Assembly (NCBI RefSeq): GCF_947494875.1
Contig: NZ_CANLWM010000007.1
Coordinates: 62,001-126,000 of the forward strand
Direction: 5' to 3'
From: an uncultured Williamsia sp.
Lineage (GTDB): Bacteria; Actinomycetota; Actinomycetes; Mycobacteriales; Mycobacteriaceae
DNA length: 64,000 nucleotides
The notes under the pieces: model-generated
What the model saw: only the letters and a program-made list of their open reading frames with translations
What the model was told of the DNA's origin: nothing
Database searches by the model: none
Position numbers and translations under genes: made by a program
In this document: positions 23,587 to 47,345 of the stretch, piece after piece
Position numbering within the stretch: position 1 is the first letter of the stretch
How the letters are laid out: the number at the start of each line of letters is the position of its first letter

Positions 23587-25251
<1,665 letters not shown>

Positions 25252-25280
25252 TCAGGACCGGGGCGGAACGTACAGGGGTC

Positions 25281-25580
25281 TTACTTGCCGACGACGGCGA
25301 GGACGTCGCGCGCCGACAGGATCAGGTACTCCTCACCGGCGTACTTGATCTCGGTGCCGCCGTACTTGGAGTAGATGACGGTGTCACCCTCCTTGACGTC
25401 GACCGGGACACGGTTGCCCTGCTCGGTCACGCGACCCTCGCCCACGGCGATGACGGTGCCCTCCTGGGGCTTCTCCTTGGCCGTGTCGGGGATGACCAGG
25501 CCGGAGGCGGTCGTCGTCTCGGCCTCGTTGGCCTGGACGAGGATCTTGTCCTCGAGCGGCTTGATGTTCACGCTCGCCAC
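25281..25580 (-). CDS. groES: co-chaperonin GroES (Cpn10)
   Basis: A 99-aa Cpn10: [20 protein letters not shown] at the start, mobile loop [17 protein letters not shown], and [20 protein letters not shown] at the end. It caps GroEL rings and is first in the groES-groEL1 operon, with a 77-bp gap to groEL1. GTG start at 25580. The leader of about 130 nt begins at the CIRCE-overlapped promoter. Confidence 0.97.
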
Positions 25581-25709
25581 GATGTGAGCCCTCCACTTTC
25601 AGCAGTCACGGGCAGGCATCCTGCCTGACCCGGTTGTCGATGAGTTCCACGCATGTGGCTCCGCGCTCGGTCCCGTCGTCGCGGGTGCCGGAACCGCACT
25701 CGGTGCCGA

Positions 25710-25736
25710 TTGGCACTCTATACATGAGAGTGCCAG
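25710..25736. promoter_or_regulatory. CIRCE operator (HrcA site) upstream of groES
   Basis: TTGGCACTC (25710-25718), nine-base loop, GAGTGCCAG (25728-25736). It matches the HrcA-binding consensus TTAGCACTC-N9-GAGTGCTAA at 15 of 18 arm positions with the exact 9-bp loop. It overlaps the predicted -10 and start point of groES, the expected place for repression. The right arm is part of the first 78-bp tandem repeat. Confidence 0.88.
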
Positions 25737-25744
25737 CACTCAAG
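25717..25744 (-). promoter_or_regulatory. predicted groES-groEL1 promoter
   Basis: On the minus strand CTTGAG (25744-25739) and TATAGA (25722-25717) are 16 bp apart. The -10 lies in the CIRCE loop and left arm. Transcription start would be near 25710. The same pair recurs 78 and 156 bp upstream with a weaker TATGAG or CATGAG -10 in the repeat copies. Confidence 0.6.
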
Positions 25745-25976
25745 TGTCGTCAATGCCAATCCTCGGCGGTCCCGAGAGCTGCGGGCTCAGCCGGCTCATA
25801 CATGAGACTGCCAGCACTCAAGTGTCGTCAATGCCAATCCTCGGCGGTCCCGAGAGCTGCGGGCTCAGCCGGCTCATGCATGAGAGTGCCAGCACTCAAG
25901 TGTCGTCAATGCCAATCCTCGGCCGTTCCCGGAGTTCCGGGCTCAGCCGGTCCATACACGTGAGCGCCGGCACTCG
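25723..25976. repeat. 78-bp tandem repeat array carrying CIRCE half-sites
   Basis: Three full copies begin at 25723, 25801 and 25879, with a partial fourth at 25957; spacing is exactly 78 bp. Copies 1 and 2 differ at only 2 of 78 positions; copy 3 is more diverged toward its end. Each copy begins with CATGAGA and carries a GAGTGCCAGCACTC palindrome (one base changed in copy 2), the CTTGAG -35 and a CTCAT-ATGAG junction. Only the first copy has the complete left CIRCE arm. The region lies between groES and the MFS gene and encodes no convincing protein. Confidence 0.92.
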
Positions 25977-25994
25977 AGTACTACCGAGTGCCGG
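25967..25994. terminator. hairpin at the 3' end of the MFS gene
   Basis: CCGGCACTCG-AGTACTAC-CGAGTGCCGG, a perfect 10-bp stem with 8-nt loop, 26 bp past the MFS stop on the minus strand. It could terminate the MFS transcript. Its arms contain GGCACTC and GAGTGCC, so an extra HrcA-type site (loop 10 rather than 9) is a second possibility. Confidence 0.55.
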
Positions 25995-26019
25995 CACCCG
26001 CATGTACGGAGCAGCCGCG

Positions 26020-27594
26020 TCAGGCGGCCTCGACCACCTCCCGTCGGCGCCGCTTCAGTGCGATCACGACGAGGCTGTAGACCATCGCGACGATCGACAG
26101 ACCCGAGATGACCATGATCGCGGTGTCGACGCCGCCGGGCAGGGCACCGGGCGCGACCGTGGCCCGCGAACTGGTGACGATCGCGGTGACCACGGCGAGC
26201 ATGATGGCCCCACCCACCTGCACCGACGTGTTCACCAGACCGGACGCCAGGCCCTGTTCGTGGTCGGCGACGCCCGACGTCGCCTGCGCGTTGACGGCCG
26301 GGAAGCACAGGGCGAAGCCCACGCCCAGAAGGACGATCGTGGGCAGCAGGAACTGGGCGTACCCCTGCCCCGGCTCGGTCCGCAGGAACAGCAGGTACCC
26401 GGCGACGAACGCCGTGAGCCCGACCGCGATGAGCACGGGCGTCGCGATGCGTGCCTGCACACGGTCCATGCCGGTCGCACTGATGGCGACCAGGAGCCCG
26501 GCGGGCAGGAAACCGAGCGCCATCGCGATCGGCGACCAGCCGAGGGTGTTCTGCAGGTAGATGGTCACCAGGAACTGGAAGGCGACGTACCCGCCGAACA
26601 TCGCGGCCGCCGCGACGTTGGCGTGGACCAGGGTCGTCGACCGCAGGATGCCGAGACGGAGCAGCGGTGCGCCGTGGCGTCGCTCGACGACGACGAACGC
26701 GCCGAACAGCACCGCGGCGGCGGCGAACAGCACGATCGTCTGCGTGCTGGCCCACCCCGAGGTCGGGGCCTGGACCACCGCGTAGACCAGCGCGAGCAAC
26801 GCGCCCGTGCTTGTCAGGGCACCGGCGAGGTCGAACTGGGCGAACCGCACCGGCGTGCGCCGCGTCCGCGGGATGACGCGCATGCCGGCGAGCAGCAGCG
26901 CGGCCGCGATCGGCCCGGGGAACAGCAGTGTCGCCTGCCATGAGACCTCGGTGAGCAGGCCGCCGAACACGAGCCCCAGCGAGAAGCCGCTGGCGCCGCA
27001 GACGGTGTAGATGCTCAGTGCCTTGTTGCGGGCCGGCCCCTCGGCGAACGTCGTCGTGATGATCGACAGGCCGGCCGGGACGGTGAACGCCGCGGCGATG
27101 CCCTTGACGAACCGCAGGGCGACGATCGCCTCGTCGACCTGCACCACGGCACTGACGACCGATGCCGCCGCGAAGACGGCCAGCGCCCAGAGGAAGACGC
27201 GCCGCCGGCCGAAGAGGTCGCTGGCGCGGCCGCCGAGCAGCAGGAAACCGCCGTACCCCAGGACGTATCCCGACACGATCCACTGCAGCTGCGACTGCGT
27301 CATGGACAGGTCGGCACCGATCGAGGGCAGGGCGACACCCACCATCGAGACGTCGAGGCCGTCGAGGAACAGGACGCCGGCCAACACCACCAGCAGGATC
27401 CACGTGCGGGCGGCCCATCCCCCGGCGGTGGTGACCGTCATGTGCGCCGGCGTCGCACCGGCTCCGTCGTACGTGGTGTCTTCTCGTCGTGTCCCCGCGT
27501 GTCGATCCCGCGCCGTCCGAGCGGCGGTGTCGTCCACCGCGTCCACGGTCGGCCAGGGTTCCCCCGGGCGGATGTCCTCGAGTCTCACAGTCAT
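26020..27594 (-). CDS. MFS drug exporter, DHA2 (14-TM) type
   Basis: A 524-aa transporter. After an unusual hydrophilic N-terminal extension of about 50 residues come 14 predicted membrane helices, with LDGLDVSMVGVALPSIGADL in helix 1 and GGRASDLFGRRRVFLWALAV (motif A) between helices 2 and 3, as in QacA/EmrB proton-coupled exporters. The start at 27594 is chosen because a -10 TATAGT at 27601-27606 places transcription start on this A; a later in-frame ATG at 27441 would remove the extension. Divergent from the MarR gene, its probable repressor. Confidence 0.88.
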   Translation of the reverse strand: MTVRLEDIRPGEPWPTVDAVDDTAARTARDRHAGTRREDTTYDGAGATPAHMTVTTAGGWAARTWILLVVLAGVLFLDGLDVSMVGVALPSIGADLSMTQSQLQWIVSGYVLGYGGFLLLGGRASDLFGRRRVFLWALAVFAAASVVSAVVQVDEAIVALRFVKGIAAAFTVPAGLSIITTTFAEGPARNKALSIYTVCGASGFSLGLVFGGLLTEVSWQATLLFPGPIAAALLLAGMRVIPRTRRTPVRFAQFDLAGALTSTGALLALVYAVVQAPTSGWASTQTIVLFAAAAVLFGAFVVVERRHGAPLLRLGILRSTTLVHANVAAAAMFGGYVAFQFLVTIYLQNTLGWSPIAMALGFLPAGLLVAISATGMDRVQARIATPVLIAVGLTAFVAGYLLFLRTEPGQGYAQFLLPTIVLLGVGFALCFPAVNAQATSGVADHEQGLASGLVNTSVQVGGAIMLAVVTAIVTSSRATVAPGALPGGVDTAIMVISGLSIVAMVYSLVVIALKRRRREVVEAA

Positions 27595-27600
27595 GCGGGG

Positions 27601-27672
27601 ACTATATGCACACGCATTGGATGTGTCTACAAATAATTTGTCTGCAACAAATGCAGGGACAAGGGGTATGAT
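27601..27672. promoter_or_regulatory. divergent leaderless promoters and MarR-type palindromes
   Basis: Minus strand: TAGACA, 17 bp, TATAGT (27606-27601), start point at 27594, which is the A of the MFS ATG. Plus strand: -10 TATGAT (27667-27672), start point at 27679, the A of the marR ATG. Between them are ACAAAT-A-ATTTGT (27629-27641, perfect 13-bp palindrome) and TTGTC-TGCA-n5-TGCA-GGGACAA (27638-27662). One regulator dimer at each could shut off both genes. Confidence 0.75.
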
Positions 27673-27678
27673 GCGGCC

Positions 27679-28134
27679 ATGACCGCAGATGTGTCCGCGT
27701 CGACGATGACGACGACGCCATGCGCCGACGACCGACTCGCCGCCGCCTGGCAGCAGCTCTCCGTCCGGTATCACCGGGTGTCGTGCGAGATCGATCGCAC
27801 GTTGCAGGCGGCGCACGGACTCACCGGCAGCGAGTTCGAGGTCCTCGAACTCCTCGCCGCCGCGGACGACCATTCACTGCGCATGAGCGAACTCGCCGCG
27901 CAGGTGCACCTGAGCCAGAGCGCACTGTCGCGGTTGGTCGCGGGCCTCGAGAAGGACGGGCTGGCGCAGCGATCGATGTGCGCGGCAGACCGCCGGTCGG
28001 TGTTCACCGCGCTGACGCCCCAGGGGCTGTCGCGCTACGAGGAGGCCAAGCCCGCCCACCGGGCCGTGCTCCGCGCCACCGCCGTCGACTCCGACGGTCG
28101 CACCCTGTGCGGCGCAACCGATCTCACGGACTGA
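27679..28134 (+). CDS. MarR-family transcriptional regulator
   Basis: A 151-aa winged-helix regulator. Core GLTGSEFEVLELLAAADDHS, recognition helix LRMSELAAQVHLSQSALSRL, wing EKDGLAQRSMCAADRRSVFT. Typical MarR length and topology. It is divergent from the MFS exporter across palindromic operators, the standard arrangement for ligand-relieved repression of an efflux pump. The transcript appears leaderless. This pair is not part of the conserved groES-tsaD neighbourhood and looks like an insertion. Stops 6 bp before convergent tsaD. Confidence 0.9.
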   Translation: MTADVSASTMTTTPCADDRLAAAWQQLSVRYHRVSCEIDRTLQAAHGLTGSEFEVLELLAAADDHSLRMSELAAQVHLSQSALSRLVAGLEKDGLAQRSMCAADRRSVFTALTPQGLSRYEEAKPAHRAVLRATAVDSDGRTLCGATDLTD

Positions 28135-30310: not shown

Positions 30311-30367
30311 GGTGACCCAGGGTAGTCGGCACCCGCACCCGACCCCGAATCCCGCCGTCTCCCACCC

Positions 30368-30500
30368 GTCGAGTGGGCGGTTGGCGGCGTCGAGTGGGCG
30401 ATTGGCGGCGTCGAGTGGGCGGTAGGGGTCACGCGGCGCGTCCGAACGCCCAGTCGACCTCGCCAACCGCCCAGTCGACGCGTCCAACCGCCCAGTCGAC
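30368..30500. repeat. symmetric 3+3 inverted array of 21-bp units
   Basis: GTCGAGTGGGCG occurs at 30368, 30389 and 30410 (21-bp spacing), and the near-inverse CGCCCAGTCGAC at 30447, 30468 and 30489 (again 21-bp spacing). The halves pair over long stretches (GTCGAGTGGGCGGTTGG against CCAACCGCCCAGTCGAC, one mismatch), so the RNA between tsaE and tsaB could form one long hairpin or several alternative ones. No gene is present in 30311-30527. Confidence 0.88.
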
Positions 30501-30527
30501 GGGGTGGTGGGGAGGGGCCGGGTCAGG

Positions 30528-37701: not shown

Positions 37702-38880
37702 TCACCGGTCCCCCGCCAACGCCAGCCCCCCGCCGTCGTCGGGGTCCGGTGTGGCCACGGGCCCGGGACGCGTGGCGACGGCGGGCGCCTCGTGTTTCTC
37801 CGGAGGCGCCACCGGTGTCTCCCGATCGTCGTCGACCGGCGCCGGCGGCCTGTCGGGGACGGGATCCGACGTGGCCGGGTCACGAAGCGCCGGCGCCGCC
37901 GGCTCCTCGTCGTCGTATCGGAGGTTGAGCTGTGGGCGCGTCCCGGTGGCAGGGGCGTTCGGCGTCTCCGCTCGATCCTTGCCCGGGTCGCCCTGCGGGT
38001 GCGGGGGCGCCGCGATGTCCGGTGGTGGCACAGGGGTGTCGGAGGGCGCGGTCGGCGACGGCCGGGGCTCGTCGGGTTCTGCGGGTGTGTCGGGTTCTGC
38101 GGGTGTGTCGGGTTCTGCGGGTGTGTCGAGAGCGGTCTCGACGAGCTGCGCGACGACCCCGGCGGCCCCGACAGCCGCCATCCCCACGGCGGCGGCGGTC
38201 GCCGCGCCCGCCCCGGCGAGTGCTCCCACGACGCCTGTCAGGGCCACCGTCGGTCGCCGATCGTGGACGACGTCGGTGCGGTCGACGCCCGGGTCGGGCG
38301 TCTGCGCCAGTCGGCCGCTGCAGTCGGCGAGGACGGTGAGGACCTCGGTGATCGCGGATTCCGTGACGGCCAACGCGGTCTCGACTGTGGTGACCGCGGT
38401 CTGCAGCAGGGCCGCGATCACCGCGCGGTTGGTCTGCAGGTCAAGCCGGGTCAGTTCGGCGATCGCCCGCCCGGCGAGGACGGGGCCGGGGACCACGGCG
38501 AGGGTCGAGTGCAGTGCGGCACGCAGGTCCGTGACACCGCGTGCCGCGGCAGCCGTGGCACCGGCCGCGACGCGTAGTCGGTGGCCGGTCTCCCCGCAGG
38601 AGCGGTGGATCTCCGCGACGGCGGTGTGGGCGTTCTGTCCGGCGATGCCGTGCCAGGCGGCAGGCAGGTCGTCCGCGACGGCCCCGACGGCGTCGGCGAC
38701 TGCGGTCACGGAATCCGCGAGGGATCGCAGCCGCCGGGACTCCTCGACCAGCACGTCGACGTCGACGCCGTCGATCGCGGCGAGTCGATCCGTCCACGCC
38801 TGCGAGGACGGGAGCGTCACACCGACCTCGCGGGCGACCGGGGTGAGGGCGGCCACGAATGCCGCGACCGGCACGGTCAC
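37702..38880 (-). CDS. Ala/Pro-rich protein with WXG100-like segment (Rv3439c-like)
   Basis: A 392-aa protein. The N-terminal half (to about 190) is helical and contains LPAAWHGIAGQNAHTAVAEI, a W-x-G turn reminiscent of WXG100/ESX-associated helical hairpins. A hydrophobic glycine/alanine-rich segment (VALTGVVGALAGAGAATAAA) at about 210-245 may be a membrane helix. The rest is Pro/Asp-rich and disordered, including three TPAEPD units encoded by 18-bp direct repeats near 38078-38135. Starts with a 4-bp overlap with the next gene upstream. Position and composition match Rv3439c. Confidence 0.72.
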   Translation of the reverse strand: MTVPVAAFVAALTPVAREVGVTLPSSQAWTDRLAAIDGVDVDVLVEESRRLRSLADSVTAVADAVGAVADDLPAAWHGIAGQNAHTAVAEIHRSCGETGHRLRVAAGATAAAARGVTDLRAALHSTLAVVPGPVLAGRAIAELTRLDLQTNRAVIAALLQTAVTTVETALAVTESAITEVLTVLADCSGRLAQTPDPGVDRTDVVHDRRPTVALTGVVGALAGAGAATAAAVGMAAVGAAGVVAQLVETALDTPAEPDTPAEPDTPAEPDEPRPSPTAPSDTPVPPPDIAAPPHPQGDPGKDRAETPNAPATGTRPQLNLRYDDEEPAAPALRDPATSDPVPDRPPAPVDDDRETPVAPPEKHEAPAVATRPGPVATPDPDDGGGLALAGDR

Positions 38881-47074: not shown

Positions 47075-47345
47075 GGAACCCACCCCCATCGAGGAACTGG
47101 GCTACGAGCAGGCCCGCGACGAACTCGTCTCGGTCGTCCGCACCCTCGAGCAGGGCGGTCTCGACCTCGATGCCTCGTTGGCGCTGTGGGAGCGCGGAGA
47201 GGCGTTGGCGCGGCGGTGCGAGGACCACCTGGAGGGTGCGCGTCGTCGTATAGAGACCGCGCTCGGCGAGGTCCCCGACGACGAGGACGGGGACCTCGAG
47301 GGCGAGGACGGGGACCTCGAGGGCGAGGACGACTCCGAGGACTGA
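47064..47345 (+). CDS. xseB: exodeoxyribonuclease VII small subunit
   Basis: A 93-aa subunit: [20 protein letters not shown] with [20 protein letters not shown] is the family core. The C-terminus is a short acidic repeat (GDLEGED twice). Overlaps xseA by 11 bp, stops 27 bp before the convergent DUF4245 gene. Confidence 0.94.

Follow-up and report, generated by a model that had tools for sequence, protein, structure and literature searches.

In Mycobacterium tuberculosis, HrcA directly regulates groEL2, groES-groEL1 and rv0991c-rv0990c according to the available part of one report (PMC8557902), and the CIRCE consensus is quoted as TTAGCACTC-N9-GAGTGCTAA in the accessible text of another (PMC7464140). 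For M. tuberculosis, the available portion of PMC3207917 reports a groES transcript that includes CIRCE and infers CIRCE-dependent and CIRCE-independent starts, with a 267-nt groES leader. The available part of PMC5335608 describes two groES start sites and, downstream of tsaD, a hairpin without a U-trail by which the expression of a reporter was reduced.

Here we analyse the region upstream of groES in a window of 64,000 nucleotides from an uncultured Williamsia sp. (contig NZ_CANLWM010000007.1), hereafter the focal genome. The locus resembles the CIRCE/HrcA groES promoters of its family in the operator, in its position over the predicted -10 and in a -35/-10 spacing that is that of most relatives compared, but its upstream part has been copied in tandem, and these additional copies have no -10. 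It also resembles double-CIRCE promoters such as that of groEL2 in the focal genome, where two CIRCE sites precede one chaperonin gene; the groEL2 sites do not overlap, whereas those at groES adjoin each other, with a degenerate second site that is itself repeated. An example of tandem-repeat variation in a promoter is the TR34 repeat of Aspergillus cyp51A. As in TR34-type promoters, an upstream regulatory stretch is tandemly duplicated here and its copy number is changeable; on the other hand, the units of the present array are incomplete, and any effect on expression is hypothetical. Finally, a U-less hairpin stands between the upstream gene and groES, as does the I-shaped hairpin between tsaD and groES in the available account of M. 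tuberculosis (PMC5335608), although the focal hairpin has a CIRCE-like palindrome as its basis and stands behind an MFS gene instead of tsaD.

A 78-bp tandem array upstream of groES

The array lies between the MFS gene and groES, the order along the minus strand being MFS gene, array, leader, groES and Cpn60 gene (Table 1). TRF delimits it to 25720-25979, with a period of 78, 3.3 copies, 91% matches and a score of 420, compared to a top score of 52 in 300 dinucleotide-preserving shuffles of 25400-26300 (901 bases). The three 78-bp copies and partial fourth that a first-pass annotation had described upstream of groES are therefore real, with the end of the array at 25979 rather than 25976, and with one base of 78, not two, differing between copies 1 and 2.

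Copies 2 and 3 differ at 10/78 positions, and the partial copy 4 differs from copy 1 at 5/26. Eight of the nine differences between copies 1 and 3 fall within the 36-bp spacer part and one within the 42-bp operator part (hypergeometric P 0.0075, for a part boundary picked after looking), so that weak constraint on the CIRCE1 part is possible. The proposal that the duplication is recent stands for copies 1 and 2 but not for the array as a whole, given the 9/78 differences between copies 1 and 3 and a unit-like upstream border in W. serinedens.

Across the whole genome, the array unit has long matches at its own locus alone, all others being at E 0.17 or worse, and a search for an origin of the spacer outside the array likewise gave nothing better than E 0.17. 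Derivation of the spacer from the groES leader or from the 3' end of the MFS gene was rejected, its similarity to them being not above that of shuffles; the sole clear match of the spacer is a piece common to W. serinedens (0/500 shuffles). Two plus-strand frames of 109 and 399 aa that run across the array were set aside as open by repeat arithmetic, because 78 is a multiple of 3.

In the focal genome the MFS gene and a divergent MarR-type regulator (26020-28134) stand between the tsaD gene and groES, and another Williamsia congener has an apparent tsaD end directly upstream of groES.

Table 1 Features of the groES locus, in window coordinates.
Feature	Position	Strand	Remarks
Cpn60 gene (name groEL1 assigned here)	23587-25203	-	downstream of groES
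groES (Cpn10), 99 aa	25281..25580	-	GTG start at 25580; PF00166 E 4.5e-37
Conserved groES-leader hairpin	25661..25699	-	10-bp stem, 13-nt loop GCACCCGCGACGA; outside the array
Main CIRCE (27 bp, HrcA operator)	25710..25736	-	CTGGCACTC-N9-GAGTGCCAA, arm score 29.6
Predicted -10 TAGAGT	25715..25720	-	inside CIRCE; array boundary at 25720
Copy 1 (proximal)	25720..25797	-	-35, left CIRCE arm, CIRCE1-like site, spacer
Degenerate CIRCE1-like site	25733..25759	-	TTGGCATTG-N9-GAGTGCTGG, arm score 15.5
Predicted -35 TTGAGT	25738..25743	-	belongs to the sole copy with a -10
Copy 2	25798..25875	-	1/78 differences from copy 1; mutated left half-site of CIRCE (CTGGCAGTC); -10 position TGAGCC
CIRCE1-like repeats	25811-25837, 25889-25915	-	15.5 each, same sequence as 25733-25759
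Copy 3	25876..25953	-	9/78 differences from copy 1, 8 in the spacer part; -10 position TGAGCC
Long inverted repeat, terminator-like hairpin without T-run	25937..26024	-	spans MFS stop codon and start of copy 3 spacer
Partial copy 4 (26 bp)	25954..25979	-	diverged; -10 position TGGACC
Distal CIRCE-like palindrome	25967..25994	-	CCGGCACTC-N10-GAGTGCCGG, arm score 17.5, exact core match
MFS transporter gene	26020..27873	-	directly upstream; longest-ORF start; PF07690 E 6.5e-46

Operator sites and the predicted proximal promoter

We compared 130 groES upstream regions including the focal one, namely 30 loci (the best 30 of 61 genomes; 28 from the family and 2 from the order) and 100 further family genomes drawn from the matches listed; a groES match was found in 190/191 genomes. 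A CIRCE core that deviates at one position or none, with a spacer of 9 or 10 nt, is present in 130/130 regions. CIRCE sites were scored by a weight model for which the 129 other loci supplied 33 distinct sites; the scores of these model sites range over 18.1-32.8. The main CIRCE fits the consensus inverted repeat or comes close to it, and the earlier assignment of the site as a CIRCE/groES promoter region is supported. Copy 1 begins inside the spacer of this operator.

The CIRCE1-like sites have an intact right arm and two core mismatches in the left arm; they score under the lowest model site but over the window background, no further CIRCE site with a score >=8 being found in the window when both strands were scanned with an N9 spacer only. 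The distal CIRCE-like palindrome matches in position that of W. deligens, and what had been called a partial copy is part of this spacer-10 CIRCE, which is embedded in a long palindrome next to the stop codon of the MFS gene. The left half-sites of the lost main CIRCE are mutated in their core in copies 2 and 4 and intact in copy 3; mutation of two out of three is as expected if these half-sites are dispensable.

The predicted focal promoter is TTGAGT-17-TAGAGT, with its -10 within the right arm of CIRCE. The pattern TTGAG[TC]-17-TANNNT occurs in 110/130 groES upstream regions, the focal one included, while 20/130 do not fit it, and the 126 distinct regions, when aligned on CIRCE, have CTTGAGtGCTGGCACTCgCaTGTATAGAGTGC in common. 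The boundary of the array is the first base of the predicted -10. Because the repeat unit starts at this boundary, copies 2, 3 and 4 have neither the -10 nor the right arm of the main CIRCE, and hence no complete main CIRCE; other bases occupy the -10 position in each of them (Table 1). The -35 is kept as TTGAGT in copies 2 and 3 and reads TCGAGT in copy 4. A promoter-like pair had been claimed for each further copy, which is not supported, since the -10 motif is gone from copies 2-4, and duplication of a full promoter (-35 and -10 separated by 16-18 bp in each copy) was rejected for the same loss. As judged by these motifs the extra copies are not promoters, and groES would be transcribed solely from the proximal copy. 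Scanning 25560-26060 for the sigma-70 consensus returned no promoter; this says little by itself, because the proximal promoter was missed as well.

By the same motif assignment, the palindrome GAGTGC-TG-GCACTC is made up of the conserved -35 box and the left arm of CIRCE directly next to it. This back-to-back junction is found in 103/130 regions, and more than once in the focal region only, so that the palindrome is not in itself the newly amplified feature that it had been taken for. An HspR/HAIR element (CTTGAGT-N7-ACTCAAG) was rejected as the repeated element, no site in the array lying within 3 mismatches of it. In the genome this pattern has, at <=3 mismatches, 44 matches per strand versus 197 for a reversed control, and the best site, with 1 mismatch, precedes an ORF read as ClpB-like.

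An hrcA gene was to be expected from the first-pass annotation, and one match is indeed present in the genome (PF01628 E 1.9e-55), an ORF of 359 aa after which comes an ORF read as DnaJ-like. Sites of the form GCACTC-N8..11-GAGTGC number six in the genome, compared to two for the reversed control pattern: groEL2 is preceded by two of them and a Zn-ribbon gene (Zn_ribbon_8) by one, a further two lie at groES and the last beside an Hsp20-like gene, groEL2 and the Hsp20-like gene being named by reading of the DNA. The two CIRCE sites upstream of groEL2 are 35 bp apart.

The distal long palindrome

The stretch 25937-26024 folds as a single hairpin with an MFE of -59.8 kcal/mol (z -7.06, 0/200 shuffles). 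Its inner part is common to W. deligens, whose version is shorter; the outer arms alone were equalled in stability by 31/1000 shuffles, and extension of the palindrome is therefore only suggestive. Centred on the spacer-10 CIRCE, this structure is possibly a U-less terminator or a cruciform. No intrinsic terminator with a GC-rich stem and a T-run was found in 25560-26060. The repeat units were rejected as structured RNA, since two of the three copies fold no better than shuffles (z 0.14, 0.72 and -2.26). The M. tuberculosis transcript with CIRCE in the available part of PMC3207917 makes transcription across the array possible.

Copy number and history in relatives

TRF (score >=50, last 460 nt) is positive in 3/130 regions: the focal array, a 24-bp two-copy repeat on the two CIRCEs of one locus, and an 18-bp repeat elsewhere in another region. 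Within the last 460 nt, ungapped self-similarity reaches 139.5 at the focal locus, compared to 16.5 for the runner-up and 15 for the top of 40 shuffles. A pattern specific for the array was found in 1/401 family genomes, the focal one; this pattern was built on Williamsia sequence, and other arrays are therefore possible. The anticipated variation in copy number is borne out between species, with 3.3 copies in the focal genome versus one in each of seven congeners (one genome per species).

In the genome collection, the nearest relatives of the MFS protein are those of Williamsia serinedens (94%) and W. deligens (94%). Both species have one copy; the upstream border in W. deligens is like the focal distal end, and that in W. 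serinedens (TTGGCATTGA) is like the focal proximal unit. This fits a two-copy ancestor, loss in W. serinedens and then the recent duplication of copies 1 and 2. On the other hand, the focal genome differs from W. serinedens at 1/131 leader sites and at 154/616 (25%) MFS third positions, and from W. deligens at 13/131 and 156/618, respectively. Divergence from the two relatives is similar over most of the MFS region and becomes lower from W. serinedens downstream, the profile shifting at the array, which is suggestive of a recombination junction there as an alternative history. Since groES is conserved in all three species, constraint explains part of this contrast; the near-identical W. serinedens leader beside a divergent MFS gene (25581-26100) is thus suggestive of either constraint or local recombination.

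In one Williamsia congener an additional CTGGCACTC..TACTT stretch is located about 240-160 bases before groES, at a distance of 56 bp upstream from the congener's own CIRCE1. By its sequence this is perhaps an independent, diverged and partial duplication, and upstream partial duplication may therefore extend beyond the focal lineage.

Interpretation of the extra copies

We consider it probable that the array arose by a lineage-specific duplication of the upstream part of an HrcA-type groES promoter, the extra copies being nearly neutral or weak HrcA sites. The promoter of the genus consists of two adjoining CIRCE-like palindromes whose junction is formed by the -35 box, with the predicted -10 inside the right arm of the gene-proximal palindrome. 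The repeat unit runs from the -10 boundary upstream via the -35, the left CIRCE arm and the degenerate second CIRCE to a spacer of about 36 bp, leaving the gene-distal copies with a -35-like box and operator fragments, and without a -10 or a complete main CIRCE. These copies would be nearly neutral, or would bind HrcA weakly and slightly tighten repression. Copies 1 and 2 probably originated recently, via slippage or unequal recombination, and the split from copy 3 is older. The anatomy, the single-copy state of the compared congeners, the loss of the -10 motif and the presence of hrcA can be read directly from the DNA. Against neutrality, the operator part of the copies and the three identical CIRCE1-like sites hint at constraint, and a modest role of the extra copies as weak operators is possible.

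A stronger functional claim would be that the three CIRCE1 sites, the distal spacer-10 site and the main CIRCE form an operator cluster that binds HrcA jointly, which we hold to be unlikely, and we give as little credence to its supposed outcome, tighter groES repression, sharper heat induction or an HrcA reserve, with copy number tuning the output. Five CIRCE-like sites do lie in 285 bp, with none scoring >=8 elsewhere in the window, and all three copies share the same CIRCE1-like site, whereas the spacer has diverged. In the accessible text of PMC7464140, the Campylobacter jejuni repressor HspR occupies several sites at each chaperone promoter and acts in cooperation with HrcA, but HrcA itself protects a compact single-site region. 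Moreover, the two core mismatches in the left arm of CIRCE1 bring its score to 15.5, under the 18.1 of the lowest model site; adjoining sites overlap by 4 bp; and 78 bp correspond to 7.4 helical turns (10.5 bp per turn assumed), so that successive copies lie on nearly opposite sides of the helix. The seven compared congeners also manage without an array. A selected, copy-number-adjustable HrcA operator cluster is in our opinion quite unlikely: degenerate CIRCE1 sites would be multiplied upstream of one intact promoter, each extra copy being promoter-dead, and slippage would alter repression without adding start sites.

The array and the distal palindrome could instead act mainly as a transcription barrier or leader structure, in which a U-less hairpin ends MFS transcripts before groES. 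The fold of 25937-26024 (z -7.06), the shorter version of the hairpin in W. deligens and the reduction of reporter expression in M. smegmatis by a U-less hairpin downstream of tsaD, as given in the available part of PMC5335608, agree with such a role. That text, however, holds contradictory evidence on U-less terminators, no T-run terminator was found in 25560-26060, two of the three repeat units fold like shuffles, and a barrier accounts for the distal palindrome but not for the repeats; we regard it as very improbable. It is hardly credible, too, that the array is an assembly artefact with a wrongly resolved number of repeats. The genome is a draft of 17 contigs and the array (260 bp) exceeds many short reads, but copies 3 and 4 have their own differences and copy 2 has one, therefore at least three distinct copies exist, and an assembly error is easily conceivable for the duplication of copies 1 and 2 only.

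Should the extra sites of the duplicated promoter part bind HrcA, the locus would offer a natural example of an essential chaperonin tuned through the copy number of its operator, for which the single-copy sister species are controls. Should they not, it would be an ordinary promoter-region duplication, of use mainly as a caution that repetition of an operator palindrome does not amount to repetition of a promoter.

A conserved hairpin in the groES leader and other repeats

Just downstream of the predicted start, the groES leader contains a hairpin whose loop core CCCGCGACG is present with at most one mismatch in 130/130 groES leaders. Covariation was assessed on 38 distinct 39-mers picked from 92, a choice favouring intact loops. 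The 10-bp stem pairs in 85.0% of cells compared to 65.7% in shuffles (0/500), and double-sided cells number 86 versus 32 (0/500), while the stem pairs with any double-sided change, 8 in number, are not above shuffles (7.2; 208/500). Pairing is far worse when the stem partners are slid. A search of the focal genome with a model of the hairpin gave a single strong match (E 1.3e-8), located at groES, the second best being at 0.25. With stricter filters, 8 of 149 phylum genomes match at E <=0.001 and 141 do not, and the three matches from outside the family belong to one genus of a second actinobacterial family, where they precede groES (two by ORF, the third by reading of the DNA).

Rfam gave no convincing family on 25200-26100, two miRNA models under their gathering scores being taken as chance; a different groES motif, from Pseudomonas, is in Rfam according to the available part of PMC2864571. 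Among the literature matches listed, no title or abstract opening concerned a groES-leader hairpin. The leader hairpin could be a regulatory RNA element of groES in actinobacteria that has so far gone undescribed, and this covarying element may be a more general lead than the array. The groEL2 leader contains CGTCGCGGG, complementary to the loop CCCGCGACG of the groES leader, which could be chance.

Other repeats were observed in the window. Between tsaE-like and tsaB-like genes (named by reading), 30360-30510 holds two tandem 21-bp arrays in opposite orientation; this stretch has 55 match rows in the focal genome (both strands, with overlaps and itself counted) and resembles a dispersed REP-type palindromic repeat family. 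Two perfect tandem repeats with periods divisible by 3 lie at 38071-38128 (18 bp x 3.2) and at 47282-47331 (21 bp x 2.4).
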